Source: Crocinitomicaceae bacterium (lineage in GTDB: Bacteria; Bacteroidota; Bacteroidia; Flavobacteriales_D; Sanyastnellaceae). From it: a stretch of 64,000 bases of DNA. Where the stretch lies: the NCBI GenBank assembly GCA_002693775.1, contig NZRP01000049.1, positions 1 through 64,000 of the forward strand, given 5' to 3'. A model generated the notes under the pieces. The model saw nothing but the letters and a program-made list of their open reading frames with translations. It made no database searches and was not told the origin of the DNA. Positions 22,718 to 28,462 of the stretch are shown here, piece by piece. Each line of letters opens with the position of its first letter. The first letter of the stretch is position 1. A program made the translations under genes and the position numbers.

Positions 22718-24406
22718 ATGAAATTGAAGTTTACGACAGTCTTATTCTTAGCCCTAATCACAACCTTTTTAGCTAAGGCCCAGTTCACTGGGTTTACTGC
22801 AGAGCTAGACACTGTCTTTTTTGGAGCGAACACCCCTGATACGGATGATCCGTTTGACCCAGAAGGCAATCTAGAATTCTACGGAGCATATAAGATTTAT
22901 GCAAACTTTACTAATCCTATGGATGCATTGAGTGCAGTTTACTCAGATGTTGAATCACTAGGAACTCCGTCTATGTACATCGACGCTCCATGTGGATGTC
23001 ACAATCCAGTTGAAGGATCTTACATTATGGATGCCTCTAACCCATCTTCTATTTGGATGGGGCCATTCCTTGATTGGGAGTATGACACTTATATGACGAT
23101 AGGAATGCCAAGTTCAGACGCCCCAGGCTCACTACCTCAGGGCGTAGGAATACCAGCTGATGGGTCTAACATCTGTTCAGACATTATCACCAACGGTTCA
23201 CTCTTCAGCGTAGGAATGCCACAAAACTCGGTAGCTGGTGCTGATCTAAAAGTTCTTGTTGCTCAGGTAACTACTTGCGGACATTTTTCATTCAGTGCTT
23301 GTGTTCAGGTGTTTATCGACGGAGACCAGGAGCAGATTCAATACACCTGCCCAGGGGTTCTTGAGGTAATGCATGTATACGAGGATGGAGTATGTGTTAA
23401 TGATGCTGATGGAGACGGAATTTGTGATGAGTTTGAGGTGATAGGATGCATGGAGGAAGATGCTTGTAACTACGACCTAGAAGCCACAGATAACACAGGA
23501 GGATGTGATTACAGCTGTTATGGTTGTACAGATGAATTTTCTTGTAATTACAACGACGAGGCTACACTGGATGATGGAACATGTGAGTACACTTCTTGTG
23601 CTGGATGTACTGACCCTGTAGCTTGTAATTTCAACGTTACAGCTTGGCTAGAGGACGGAACATGTGAGTACACATCGTGCGCAGGCTGCATTATTCCTGA
23701 AGCTTGTAACTACCAAGAAGAGATGACTATTGACGATGGGTCTTGTATCCTACCTGGCGATCCATGTGATGATGGCGAAGAGTACACATACGACGACTTT
23801 ATACAAGATGACTGTTCTTGCACAGGGTACGGCTGCGATGATTCCGACGCCTGTAATTACAACCCTAATGCGATACCTAACAATAGCATCTGCAACTACA
23901 TCACCCTGTATAGCATTATAGGTGAGATAAATCCTAATGCCATAATGCTGTTAACATACAGTTACCCAAACACTCCTGGCTCTACTTATGAGTGGGTAAC
24001 AACTTTTGGAGATGTAGAAGATGGTGAGGGAACAAGTGAAGTTGAAGTTGCATGGTGGGGTGATGACCAAGGAACAATCTGTGTCACTGAAACAAACGGT
24101 GGTGGCTGTTCTGGAGAGCAGGTTTGCTTAGATGTAGATATCATTCCTGTGAATATTGATGAACTGGGAGAAGTGCCGTTTATCGTGTATCCATCTCCTG
24201 CTACATCGACACTTAATATCAGAACAATTAACCAAGTTGACCAGGCGATAATCCAAATTAGAGATACTTCAGGCAGGTTAGTTTACACATCTTCTATGAA
24301 TAGAATGTCTACAGTAGATGTGAGCTCTCTAGCACGAGGAACATATTTAGTAAAGTTAATTTCTGGCGACTCTCAGAGTCAGTTTAGAAGAGTAGTTCTA
24401 CATTAA
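22718..24406 (+). CDS. Secreted Cys-rich repeat protein with T9SS type A sorting domain
   Basis: A 562-residue secreted protein. Residues 1-22 are a signal peptide ending AKAQ. Residues ~25-225 form an unrecognised globular region with Cys pairs. A calcium-loop-like DADGDGICDEFE (229-240) leads into five GC(T/M)xxxACNY-type repeats, and residues 486-562 are a type A sorting domain (FIVYPSPATSTLNIR ... ARGTYLVKL). Repeats of this kind are common in surface proteins of marine Bacteroidota, but their role is unknown; adhesion or calcium/disulfide-stabilised stalk formation is plausible. It begins 42 bases after pepP and 25 bases before the DUF1800 gene. Confidence 0.87.
   Translation: MKLKFTTVLFLALITTFLAKAQFTGFTAELDTVFFGANTPDTDDPFDPEGNLEFYGAYKIYANFTNPMDALSAVYSDVESLGTPSMYIDAPCGCHNPVEGSYIMDASNPSSIWMGPFLDWEYDTYMTIGMPSSDAPGSLPQGVGIPADGSNICSDIITNGSLFSVGMPQNSVAGADLKVLVAQVTTCGHFSFSACVQVFIDGDQEQIQYTCPGVLEVMHVYEDGVCVNDADGDGICDEFEVIGCMEEDACNYDLEATDNTGGCDYSCYGCTDEFSCNYNDEATLDDGTCEYTSCAGCTDPVACNFNVTAWLEDGTCEYTSCAGCIIPEACNYQEEMTIDDGSCILPGDPCDDGEEYTYDDFIQDDCSCTGYGCDDSDACNYNPNAIPNNSICNYITLYSIIGEINPNAIMLLTYSYPNTPGSTYEWVTTFGDVEDGEGTSEVEVAWWGDDQGTICVTETNGGGCSGEQVCLDVDIIPVNIDELGEVPFIVYPSPATSTLNIRTINQVDQAIIQIRDTSGRLVYTSSMNRMSTVDVSSLARGTYLVKLISGDSQSQFRRVVLH
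23444..23902 (+). repeat. Five tandem Cys-rich protein repeats (GCxxxxACNYN type)
   Basis: Residues 243-395 of the secreted protein hold five degenerate copies of about 27-30 residues: GCMEEDACNY, GCTDEFSCNY, GCTDPVACNF, GCIIPEACNY and GCDDSDACNY. The first four end in a DDGTC/DGSC-type motif; the last, interrupted by a DDCSC linker, ends in SICNY. The DNA copies are diverged, so this is an old protein-level repeat, not a recent duplication. Confidence 0.85.
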
Positions 24407-24430: not shown

Positions 24431-26287
24431 ATGAGACATGTTACCGCGCTAACATTAGTTATTGTTCTGGCCAGCTTTAATTGTATTGCACAGGGAGCAC
24501 CTCACTCAGATTACCTGGGTGCTGGGCATATTACTGGGGTTACTGTTACAACTAGCGGTACCGGATTTTTTGGGGAGGGTGTAAACACAATTAATGCATC
24601 TGGGCTTGATCAGCACCTGAGGGATGCTGCGAGGTTTTTAGGCCAAAGCACAACAGGTGCTAATTACGAGGCTATTGAGTCCCTCTCCACTGAGAGCTAT
24701 GAAACATGGATTGATAATCAGATGGTCATGCCGGAGATGACTTATCTGGACTCTTCGAAGATGGTTTGGGACCACTTTGTGCAGGCGTATTTCGATGAGT
24801 GGGGTCAGATTGTAATTGAGGGGAATGAAGATGTTTTTCCTGCGAGTTTTTATTGGAGGATGGCTTGGTGGCATAACGCAATGCACGGAGAAGACTTACT
24901 AAGACAGAAGGTAGCACTCGCATTAAGTGAGCTATTAGTTGTGTCTGAGGATTCAAGGTTAGATTCGGACGCGTTTGGGCTAGCTTCTTATTATGATGTG
25001 TTATATAGCAATGCATTTGGCAATTATCGAGACCTTTTGGAGGAGGTTACTTATCATCCAGCGATGGGATATTATCTCAGTTCGATTAATAATGAGCCTA
25101 CGAATGAGGAAATGAATATCCACCCTGATGAGAATTATGCGAGGGAGATAATGCAGCTTTTTACAATTGGACTTTATGAGCTCAATCAAGATGGCACGCT
25201 TATTCTTGATTCGGGAGGAATGCCTATTGAGACTTATGATAACAGTGATATTGGTGAGTTTGCAAGGGTGTTTACGGGGCTAGGTCCAGCTGGATATTGG
25301 GCGCCTTGGGAGGATTATTCTGAGGAGGAGCCTATTTGGGGAGTTTGGTATAATACCATTCCTTTTATCGATGCTACTCAGCCCATGTTGATGTTCGAGG
25401 ACTATCACGAGGGAGGTGTAAAGCACTTGCTAAATGGAGCTGCAACATTAGATGGTGCATCTGGCGAGGAGGATATTGATGTAGCTCTGGACAACCTGTT
25501 TTATCATCAGAACACTGCTCCTTTTGTGAGCAAGAATTTAATTATGCGACTCGTCAAGAGTAACCCTACTCCTGAATATGTTGCCAGGGTTGCTTCCGTG
25601 TTTAACGACAACGGTGCAGGAGTAAAGGGCGATTTAGGAGCTGTAGTGAAGGCGATTTTGCTTGATGTCGAAGCAAGGGATTGTGAGTGGATTTCAGATC
25701 CATATAGCGGAAAGATGAGAGAGCCTATGATTAGGTACATCCAACTTTTGAAGGCATTCGATGCTCAAAATGAAAGCGGAAAGATGTTTTCTGTAGGATG
25801 GAACACAAGTGATATACAGCACCCTTTAAACTCCCCTTCCGTTTTTAATTTTTTTCTTCCAACTTATGCCCCTTCAGGACCTATTATGGACTCGTCTTTA
25901 GTAGCTCCTGAGTTTGAGCTTTTAAATTCTACAATAGCCATAGAATATATTAACATGAGCTTTGATATTATTTGGAGTGAAAATTATATGGAATCGATAA
26001 CTTTAGCTAGCCCAGAAAATATCGGATATCCGTGGTGGGAAATAGGCTTTTCCAACCCGGAAGACCATGTTGAATTAGACTTTAATGAGGAGATTTCTTT
26101 GGCCGCCTATGACCCTGCAGCTATGATAGAACGATTAAATTTACTTCTAGGTGGAGGTACAATTTCAAGCGCCACAATGCAGACAATAGTTAATATTATA
26201 GATGTAGATTATTTGGAACCCTCAGATAGAGTAAAATTAGCTCTGTACTTTATTCTTATTTCACCTGATTACGTTATCCAAAAGTAA
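24431..26287 (+). CDS. DUF1800 family secreted protein
   Basis: A 618-residue protein with a signal peptide (MRHVTALTLVIVLASFNCIAQ). A TTG six bases upstream is in frame, but the ATG at 24431 starts the signal peptide directly. DUF1800 marks are DAARFLGQSTTGANYEAI (~65-82), RMAWWHNAMHG..LLRQKVALALSELLVVS, and ENYAREIMQLFTIGLYELNQDG. The domain reaches the C-terminus and there is no T9SS sorting domain. Family function is unknown; DUF1800 genes are almost always followed by a DUF1501 gene, as here, 5 bases downstream. Together they probably act as a pair in the periplasm or on the cell surface. Confidence 0.9.
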   Translation: MRHVTALTLVIVLASFNCIAQGAPHSDYLGAGHITGVTVTTSGTGFFGEGVNTINASGLDQHLRDAARFLGQSTTGANYEAIESLSTESYETWIDNQMVMPEMTYLDSSKMVWDHFVQAYFDEWGQIVIEGNEDVFPASFYWRMAWWHNAMHGEDLLRQKVALALSELLVVSEDSRLDSDAFGLASYYDVLYSNAFGNYRDLLEEVTYHPAMGYYLSSINNEPTNEEMNIHPDENYAREIMQLFTIGLYELNQDGTLILDSGGMPIETYDNSDIGEFARVFTGLGPAGYWAPWEDYSEEEPIWGVWYNTIPFIDATQPMLMFEDYHEGGVKHLLNGAATLDGASGEEDIDVALDNLFYHQNTAPFVSKNLIMRLVKSNPTPEYVARVASVFNDNGAGVKGDLGAVVKAILLDVEARDCEWISDPYSGKMREPMIRYIQLLKAFDAQNESGKMFSVGWNTSDIQHPLNSPSVFNFFLPTYAPSGPIMDSSLVAPEFELLNSTIAIEYINMSFDIIWSENYMESITLASPENIGYPWWEIGFSNPEDHVELDFNEEISLAAYDPAAMIERLNLLLGGGTISSATMQTIVNIIDVDYLEPSDRVKLALYFILISPDYVIQK

Positions 26288-26292
26288 TACCC

Positions 26293-27732
26293 ATGGGACA
26301 TCATCATCACGACAAAAAGTCTTCTTCTAGGAGGGAAATGAGTAGAAGAAAATTCTTAGGCACTGCTTCTTGTGCTGCTCTAGGATCAACAACATTCCTT
26401 TCATCATTCACGTCACTGGGGATGATAAATTCTCTTGCTGGAGCTCGGCCGCTTGCTTCAGGTGCTCAACCACCTACGGGATATAAGGCTCTAGTTTGTA
26501 TTCTTCTTGCCGGCGGTAACGATTCGTTCAACATGATCGTACCTACAACTTCAGAACAGTATACAGATTACTCGGCTTCAAGGTCAACAGTCGCTCTTCC
26601 TTCAGGAGATTTATTGCCATTAAACTATACAGACCCTCAGGGTATAAGCTACGGTCTTCACCCATCTATGCCTGAAGTTGCAAACATGTTTAACGACGGT
26701 AAAGCGGCAATTCTAGCAAACATAGGAACGCTAATTGAACCTGTGAATAAGACGCAAGTACTCAATGGCACGGCTCCATTACCATTAGGCCTTCAGTCTC
26801 ACGCAGATCAAGCTAGACATTGGCAGACGTCAATTCCTCAAAACCGACATGCTAAAGGCTGGGGCGGTAAGGTTGCAGATATGCTTGCAGCGGGTAATAG
26901 CAATCAGGACATTTCGATGAATCTATCGCTTAGCGGAACAAATCTTTGGCAAGCTGGTAATACAGTTGATGAGTTTTCGATTACTCCTCAGGGGAGTGTA
27001 GGTGTTAACATATTGGCTGAAACAGATCCTTTTGATGTGATTATGGGTCAAGGATTACAAAACATACTAGACCAAACTTACTCGGATGTTCTCAAGCAGA
27101 CATATTCGACTAAAGTAAAGGATTCCCAAACACAGCATGAAGTGTTTACTGCTGCCTTAGAAAACCTTAACCCGCTTTCAACACAATTCTCTCAGACTTC
27201 GATTTCTCGTCAAATGAGAATGGTTGCTGAGAGCATTGCCATTGCTGGTGGATTGGGTATGCAGAAACAGACGTTCTATATTAAGTTTGGTGGTTTCGAT
27301 AACCACGGAGAGCTATTAAATAACCACGCTGGAAGGCTAAGTTTACTGAGTTCTGCCATAGGAGAGTTCTATACTGCGATGGACGAGCTGGGGATGTCAG
27401 ATAGCGTAACGACGTTTACCGTTTCTGATTTCGCAAGGACTTTGACGCCAAACGGATTTGGAACTGATCACGCTTGGGGCGGTAACGCCATGGTGTTTGG
27501 TGGCGCAGTTAACGGTAGTACGATATACGGTAACTATCCATCACTTGCTCTAGGGAATGACCTAGACCTAGGTAACGGAGTTTTAATTCCCGAGCTATGC
27601 ACGGATCAGTATTTCGCTGAGCTAGCATTATGGTTGGGAGTAGCTCCGACAGAACTAACAGATTTATTCCCCAACATAGAAAACTTCTATACGCTGGGTA
27701 CTGGCAACCCTATTGGATTCTTAAGTCTATAA
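26293..27732 (+). CDS. DUF1501 family protein with Tat signal
   Basis: A 479-residue protein with a twin-arginine signal, SRRKFLG (17-23), followed by a hydrophobic stretch, so it is probably exported folded. The body has DUF1501 hallmarks: LLAGGNDSFNMIVPT, HADQARHWQTSIP, FGGFDNHGELLNNH, TVSDFARTLTPNGFGTDHAWGG and VFGGAVNGSTIYGNYPSL. DUF1501 shares the alkaline-phosphatase/sulfatase fold superfamily, and the conserved Asp/His residues would suit metal-dependent hydrolysis. Substrate and reaction are unknown. Oddly, the n-region of the signal peptide begins MGHHHHDKK, a natural poly-His run. It is coupled to DUF1800 and followed 4 bases later by a small T9SS protein. Confidence 0.92.
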   Translation: MGHHHHDKKSSSRREMSRRKFLGTASCAALGSTTFLSSFTSLGMINSLAGARPLASGAQPPTGYKALVCILLAGGNDSFNMIVPTTSEQYTDYSASRSTVALPSGDLLPLNYTDPQGISYGLHPSMPEVANMFNDGKAAILANIGTLIEPVNKTQVLNGTAPLPLGLQSHADQARHWQTSIPQNRHAKGWGGKVADMLAAGNSNQDISMNLSLSGTNLWQAGNTVDEFSITPQGSVGVNILAETDPFDVIMGQGLQNILDQTYSDVLKQTYSTKVKDSQTQHEVFTAALENLNPLSTQFSQTSISRQMRMVAESIAIAGGLGMQKQTFYIKFGGFDNHGELLNNHAGRLSLLSSAIGEFYTAMDELGMSDSVTTFTVSDFARTLTPNGFGTDHAWGGNAMVFGGAVNGSTIYGNYPSLALGNDLDLGNGVLIPELCTDQYFAELALWLGVAPTELTDLFPNIENFYTLGTGNPIGFLSL

Positions 27733-27736
27733 CGCT

Positions 27737-28462
27737 ATGAAAAATTTACTTTTTGCAATACTAGCGTTCGTGTCAGCCGGACTATTGAGCGCTCAATGTG
27801 AGGGAGCTCATGAAGCAATGGACGATCAAAGTTGGTTGTCGTGCACGGGAACGGAGAACCCCAATACTTCGAGGACTGAGGGGCACTGGATTCTTTACGA
27901 TTTTGGGAGCTATTACTTTTTAAATGAGAGTCATTTCTGGAATTATAATCAAGCTGGCGAAACTGCTAACGGGATGGCAACGGTAGCTTTAGACTATTCA
28001 GTTGATGGCGATACCTGGTACTGGTGGGGTGACTTGAATCTAGACGAGGCGCCGGGATCGGATGAGTACTACGGCGAAGTGGGGCCGGATTTTGAAGGTC
28101 TACTAGCGAGGTACTTATTGCTGACAGTTGTGTCAAACCACGGGGGGCCTTGTTATGGGTTTTCAGAAATGAAAATCGACGTGGACCCCGGAGCACTTGA
28201 TGTTGAGGAGCCAAGTTTACAGGCCTTCCAGTTTGGTGTATATCCCAATCCGGCTTCTGATTTCGCAAGGTTTCAACTTAAGGGTGGAGTGGGGTCAATG
28301 GTAGATGTTTACAGCCCAACAGGTAAGCTCGTTTTGAGCTTGGTGATGGCGTCAGAGACTACCAGAATTGATGTTAGCGATTTCGTCCCAGGTCTTTACT
28401 TGGTAGAAGTCGAAACCACAGACGGCTCAAGGGCAACCCAGAGACTAACAGTAGTAAAGTAG
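27737..28462 (+). CDS. Small discoidin-like secreted protein with T9SS type A sorting domain
   Basis: A 241-residue protein: signal peptide 1-20, then a compact domain (~21-150) that resembles the F5/8-type C (discoidin) fold, with WILYDFGSYYFLNESHFWNY, DYSVDGDTWYWWG and ARYLLLTVV..HGG. A type A sorting domain covers ~166-241 (FGVYPNPASDFARF ... VPGLYLVEVET). The discoidin-like assignment is by pattern only; such domains usually bind carbohydrate or lipid. It follows the DUF1501 gene by 4 bases, so it is likely the third member of that module and could tether or guide it on the outer surface. Confidence 0.82.
   Translation: MKNLLFAILAFVSAGLLSAQCEGAHEAMDDQSWLSCTGTENPNTSRTEGHWILYDFGSYYFLNESHFWNYNQAGETANGMATVALDYSVDGDTWYWWGDLNLDEAPGSDEYYGEVGPDFEGLLARYLLLTVVSNHGGPCYGFSEMKIDVDPGALDVEEPSLQAFQFGVYPNPASDFARFQLKGGVGSMVDVYSPTGKLVLSLVMASETTRIDVSDFVPGLYLVEVETTDGSRATQRLTVVK

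Follow-up and report, generated by a model that had tools for sequence, protein, structure and literature searches.

Proteins of the DUF1800 and DUF1501 families are old and widespread, occur together in several phyla and have no characterised function in the literature searched. In a 64,000-nucleotide stretch of DNA from a Crocinitomicaceae bacterium (assembly GCA_002693775.1, contig NZRP01000049.1, positions 1 to 64,000; the whole stretch is called the window below) such a pair is followed by a third gene for a small secreted protein. A sequence-only reading of the window had proposed that the pair gains a surface-anchored partner here and that the three products make up a coherent system. 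This raises the question whether the third gene belongs to the pair and, if so, what the three proteins may do together. Genome and locus surveys showed that it is a stable partner of one lineage of the pair. The three genes, termed B, C and D, are the following.

24431..26287, + strand: gene B, long-type DUF1800 protein of 618 aa; Sec-type signal peptide at about residues 1-21, DUF1800 domain at residues 69-615
26293..27732, + strand: gene C, long-type DUF1501 protein of 479 aa with a Tat-type leader, assigned by Pfam, AlphaFold2 model and Foldseek
27737..28462, + strand: gene D, small secreted protein of 241 aa with a signal peptide, an F5/8C-like domain and a type IX secretion system (T9SS) type A sorting tail

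The open reading frames, their coordinates and their spacing of 4-5 bases were as first read. The genes are co-directional, with 5 bases between the stop of B (26287) and the start of C (26293) and 4 bases between the stop of C (27732) and the start of D (27737). A scan for promoters and terminators gave sites no more numerous than in shuffled sequence.

Linkage of D to the DUF1800-DUF1501 pair

We searched 297 Bacteroidota genomes with two profiles, one of the D core without its tail and one of long C. The same six genomes stood out with both: their D cores gave 159-188 bits, against no more than 30 in any other genome, and their long C proteins 599-702 bits, against no more than 147. In all six D lies 0.05-1.9 kb from C, and it is absent from the 119 genomes that have ordinary DUF1501 only. 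The co-occurrence of D and long C (6/6 versus 0/291 genomes) corresponds to a Fisher exact p of 1e-12, or 2e-10 within the 125 genomes with any DUF1501 match; these p values are indicative because genomes are not independent of one another and because the pattern had been found partly with two of the six, the source genome and its relative G018.

A second survey covered 80 homologous loci from a species-level genome collection, in which taxon names are those of the records and many entries are metagenome bins. Of the 60 Bacteroidota loci that could be tested, 55 have D beside the pair, as does one locus labelled Chlorobiota, whereas none of the 18 loci from Verrucomicrobiota, Pseudomonadota, Chloroflexota, Acidobacteriota and Myxococcota does. 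Each of the 58 D genes near a pair has the same orientation as the pair; 51 lie downstream of C, six upstream of B, and one is fused with B. A search through the whole of 15 genomes whose pair lacks D gave no D core elsewhere, apart from one partial 26-bit match in Puteibacter. The third gene is thus linked to the pair, as the earlier reading had supposed.

Chance neighbourhood was ruled out by the survey across phyla together with the repeated relocation of D described below. Acquisition of a generic F5/8C domain that could occur anywhere was likewise ruled out, since the D core was never found away from the pair in the 297 and 15 genomes. The distance matrices of B, C and D correlate with r values of 0.84-0.90, which we do not count as evidence of interaction because common descent yields the same. 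Some records are at odds with the gene tree, namely L075, L079 and L082 (Chloroflexota titles), L119 (Chlorobiota) and L063 (Chryseobacterium gleum), which may reflect mislabelling or transfer.

Two lineages of the pair

A comparison of DUF1800 proteins from 60 related genomes revealed two types. The short proteins, mostly 440-550 aa, have their own DUF1501 partner in the same order, B then C, and D follows in none of 11 loci. The long proteins, about 600-640 aa, have a long-type DUF1501 partner, and D follows in every locus that is not ended by a contig edge. The two DUF1800 types align as homologues along their length (hhalign profile-profile E 1.5e-30), and in the C tree long and short DUF1501 split with an SH-like approximate likelihood ratio (SH-aLRT) support of 100. 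By these sequence comparisons D belongs to one old, clearly separate lineage and not to the pair in general. The gain of a third partner therefore holds for the long lineage, whereas the ordinary short pair was never accompanied by D.

Relocation, fusion and co-loss

Besides its usual position D occurs upstream of B (L066, L094, L111) or on both sides of the pair (L067, L076). In locus L087 it is part of a fusion protein that consists of a signal peptide, the D core (F5_F8_type_C, residues 52-152), some 200 further residues and a DUF1800 domain (360-865), with C as the next gene. The fusion of the D core to DUF1800 indicates that the binding domain works together with B.

Two metagenome genomes with a source-like neighbourhood (L062, L070) kept the flanking genes and C and lost both B and D. 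Of B only the last ten or so codons are left (FSPDYII / TPEYIIEK), and neither B nor D was found elsewhere in these genomes, which are incomplete. Their C proteins lack 48 residues, corresponding to the helical segment 230-277 of the source protein, a segment that every other long C protein retains (51-60 residues across the compared stretch). The remaining C is under purifying selection, with a ratio of nonsynonymous to synonymous substitution rates (dN/dS) of 0.105 between the two, and retains the candidate active-site residues described below. The simplest reading is that segment 230-277 makes contact with B or D. With linkage, relocation, fusion and co-loss combined, the genomic evidence supports well that B, C and D form a coherent system.

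Predicted export routes

B and D have Sec-type signal peptides and C carries a twin-arginine leader, SRRKFLG; of 97 aligned homologues, 96 retain its arginines R18-R19. The NCBIfam model for twin-arginine translocation (Tat) signals scored 14.3 on C, just below its cut-off of 16.7. The source genome encodes TatC (214.8 bits) and the T9SS translocon protein SprA (SprA_N, 509 bits), so both predicted routes are available. C thus pairs a twin-arginine motif with a TatC-encoding genome, as expected of a Tat substrate, and D has the signal peptide, the C-terminal sorting domain and the genomic T9SS expected of type A cargo.

Predicted fold and candidate active site of C

C matches Pfam DUF1501 (PF07394) with an E-value of 4.7e-29 and 102.2 bits (cut-off 27). 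Searching by sequence gave no relatives in the PDB; these appeared only when the fold was searched. The AlphaFold2 model of C (pLDDT 87.5) was matched by Foldseek to MCR-1, LtaS, PbgA/YejM and carrageenan and choline sulfatases with probabilities of 0.97-1.00, MCR-1 reaching 1.00 with an E-value of 2e-5. The TM-scores to these relatives were modest, 0.25-0.38 when normalised to query length, at 8-12% identity. By its predicted fold C is a member of the alkaline-phosphatase/sulfatase superfamily, as had been suggested from sequence.

Ten positions (Asp77, Ser169, His170, Asp336, His338, Ser378, Asp/Glu379, Arg382, Asp392 and His393) are kept in 97 of 97 long and short homologues. They are of the residue types expected for metal ligands and a nucleophile, and in the model they follow the strands at which the alkaline phosphatase superfamily places its ligands. 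The conserved Ser/Asp/His set is a candidate active site for a putative enzymatic activity. The relevant elements of C are listed here.

26341..26361, + strand: Tat motif S-R-R-K-F-L-G (R18-R19), from direct reading and the homologue alignment
26521..26523, + strand: Asp77, candidate metal ligand just past the first strand, placed from the model topology
26797..26802, + strand: Ser169-His170, candidate nucleophile at the N-terminal end of a helix (model helix 170-179)
26980..27123, + strand: residues 230-277, helical segment and proposed docking element, missing in the two relatives without B and D
27298..27306, + strand: Asp336-x-His338, candidate metal ligands
27424..27438, + strand: Ser378-Asp/Glu379-Phe380-x-Arg382, invariant except for the D/E swap at 379
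27466..27471, + strand: Asp392-His393, candidate metal ligands

Properties of B

B matches Pfam DUF1800 (PF08811) over model positions 2-418 of 419 with an E-value of 6e-76 and 256.7 bits (cut-off 26.1). Its AlphaFold2 model is all-helical (pLDDT 91, predicted TM-score, pTM, 0.88). A search of 350,542 PDB chains with this model gave no similar fold (the best match had an E-value of 0.82 and a probability of 0.03), and no PDB relatives were found by sequence. Residues common to long and short DUF1800 include P-D/N-E-N-Y/F-A-R-E (232-239), T282-G283, H326 and K331; their conservation suggests a functional site more than a scaffolding role. Profile comparison did not support homology between B and PSD1 proteins, as no match was significant (hhalign probabilities 0.1 and 2.1).

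The D core and its exchangeable tails

D consists of the following two parts.

27794..28201, + strand: F5/8C-like core, about residues 20-155, with the cysteine pair C36 and C139, from an alignment of 49 cores
28238..28459, + strand: T9SS type A sorting tail, residues 168-241 (TIGR04183, 41.6 bits, cut-off 23)

The source-genome D matches Pfam F5_F8_type_C with an E-value of 1.8e-4 and 22 bits, below the curated cut-off of 28.2. Among its orthologues 12 of 14 match the two F5/8C models, with a best value of 1.8e-7, and relatives such as that of L073 reach 40 bits, above the cut-off. The core alignment has 12 invariant columns that include the cysteine pair, one cysteine of which is nearly invariant. 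Variants of D carry extra PA14, fn3 or TSP3 domains.

The tail of D, which also matches Pfam Por_Secre_tail (1.6e-9), belongs to T9SS type A in 45 of the 58 D genes near a pair. Several species of the source genus have a dockerin-like tail of 56 residues in its place (L041, L042, L044, L052, L058), and the D-DUF1800 fusion protein has no T9SS tail. Surface anchoring of D, proposed for the window, thus appears from sequence to be usual and not universal, and the tails are exchangeable.

The dockerin-like tail (about 56 residues with four conserved cysteines; for example L041:11781-12434, L058:8390-9043 and L159-L172) occurs in 11-39 copies per genome in the source genus, 14 of them in the source genome, and is nearly absent from the other families of the order. 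In the loci read it is always C-terminal on secreted proteins, one carrier being a GH16 enzyme. It scores just under the NCBIfam GC-type dockerin model and may serve as another means of surface sorting or anchoring. In the genus, a convergent neighbour gene has a D-like dockerin tail (L062:8283-10358; a 731-aa gene at L058:9167-11359), and in L062 it encodes a type I phosphodiesterase with a laminin-G domain. The tail of D may have been acquired from such a convergent neighbour.

Proposed function and alternatives

Our preferred reading, to which we give somewhat less than an even chance, is that B, C and D are the three components of an enzyme module in the cell envelope whose target is a glycan bound by D. 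C would be exported by Tat as a folded, metal-loaded enzyme and would move or remove phosphate, a phospho-group or sulfate. B, exported by Sec, would dock on the helical segment 230-277 of C and shape or complete the active site of C. D would be displayed at the outer surface and bind the polymer targeted by B and C, most likely a glycan, which may be taken up from the surroundings or be part of the cell's own surface. Such a module is supported by D-type cores that are joined to PA14 domains (L104) or, in a single protein, to a GH9 glycosidase (L103), and by the reported position of DUF1800-DUF1501 pairs beside chitin synthase genes in other bacteria (PMC5122149). A bolder version, in which the long set is an undescribed Bacteroidota glycan-processing machine composed of a DUF1800 protein with a fold absent from the PDB, complexed with an alkaline-phosphatase-type enzyme and supplied with substrate by a surface lectin, seems possible rather than probable.

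Several points weigh against a glycan module. Clustering of the neighbours in the 80 loci gave no recurrent polysaccharide-utilisation genes (SusC/SusD-like pair, glycosidases), and the pair occurs without D in other phyla. Since B and C have no T9SS tail they are predicted to be periplasmic, with D outside, and the D-B fusion has no such tail either. F5/8C domains bind proteins and lipids as well, and the TM-scores of C to its relatives are modest. Substrate and chemistry are what we infer, and degradation and decoration of a polymer are indistinguishable from these data. Of the earlier proposal, the coherence of the three genes stands, and the suggested role in glycan degradation or assembly stays at the level of inference.

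Assembly or decoration is the strongest alternative, although we consider it unlikely. Here C would be a periplasmic transferase, similar to MCR or LtaS, that decorates an exopolysaccharide after its export with a phospho- or sulfo-group, with B as helper and D holding the polymer at the surface. The best Foldseek matches of C do include the transferases MCR-1 and LtaS beside sulfatases, but a likeness of fold at such low identity cannot separate a hydrolase from a transferase. Glycan-degradation genes are not recurrent in the flanks, as this alternative would have it, but genes for glycosyltransferases or polymer export are equally non-recurrent there (80 loci). In other bacteria, DUF1800-DUF1501 pairs occur in chitin synthase operons (PMC5122149), which agrees with a role in assembly.

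It is improbable that B and C instead act on D or other T9SS cargo in periplasmic maturation or quality control of secreted proteins. Apart from D no further partner recurs with the pair across Bacteroidota, D is in most cases T9SS cargo, and the predicted compartments of B and C come before that of D on the export route. Against this, the D domain is fused to DUF1800 without a T9SS tail, the pair occurs without D in phyla that lack T9SS, and the tails of D are exchangeable. A non-catalytic attachment structure at the surface, with C as a degenerate superfamily member, is very doubtful: discoidin-like and fn3-bearing D variants do resemble adhesins, and none of the papers found reports an activity of ordinary DUF1501, but the candidate active-site residues are invariant in both the long and short families and C alone stayed under purifying selection after the loss of B and D.

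Neighbourhood and possible regulation

A gene with a T9SS tail at 22718-24406, left unmentioned in the earlier reading, ends 24 bases upstream of B, and its place is conserved only within the genus. Its product is a Cys-rich repeat protein, and it stays with C in the two genomes that lack B and D. It is preceded by an M24 aminopeptidase gene, the position of which is also kept only within the genus. Membership of the pair in a glycan-utilisation locus was considered and found unsupported. Nine loci of the long pair, from three phyla (L073, L074, L080, L092, L112, L113, L115, L123, L131), have a gene for an extracytoplasmic function (ECF) sigma factor nearby, and four Bacteroidota loci (L073, L074, L078, L080) have a set of FecR and TonB-receptor genes. 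These neighbours hint at envelope-sensing control.

Comparison with known systems

With the members of the alkaline phosphatase superfamily (MCR-1, LtaS, PbgA/YejM, carbohydrate sulfatases) C shares the predicted fold and the order of Asp, Ser and His residues. It is unlike them in its low sequence identity, Tat export, constant DUF1800 neighbour and the extra helical segment 230-277. D shares a signal peptide, an F5/8C domain (discoidin, CBM32-like) and a type A tail with other T9SS cargo, but its core forms a subfamily of its own that occurs solely beside the long pair, the next-best score in the 297 genomes being 30 bits. A DUF1501 module with partners of the PSCyt/PSD1 type has reportedly been described in PVC bacteria (Kamneva et al. 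2012, cited in PMC4960237). In both cases a DUF1501 protein would be kept with a large exported partner, but B did not match PSD1 proteins significantly at the profile level.

Short pairs of related genomes have the same B-then-C order and the same conserved C residues. In other bacteria the DUF1800-DUF1501 pair adjoins chitin synthase genes (PMC5122149, BMC Evol Biol 2016), and this link with bacterial chitin synthases is the only functional proposal for the pair that we found. No description of the third gene was found in the literature searched, which did not extend to subscription papers and preprints. The pair of the chitin synthase operons consists of the same two neighbouring families with a twin-arginine motif on DUF1501. 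The long proteins differ from the short pairs in forming their own clade, in a B of about 600 versus 460 aa and in the attached D, and no chitin synthase was seen near them. The best reading is that the B-C-D set is a variant of the known, uncharacterised DUF1800-DUF1501 pair. To this pair the long lineage adds a third protein whose type can be recognised, a fusion that arose in nature, and a joint loss of B and D matched by a deletion in C. Docking of B on C through segment 230-277 and substrate binding by D thereby become specific questions that can be tested in cultured Flavobacteriaceae.

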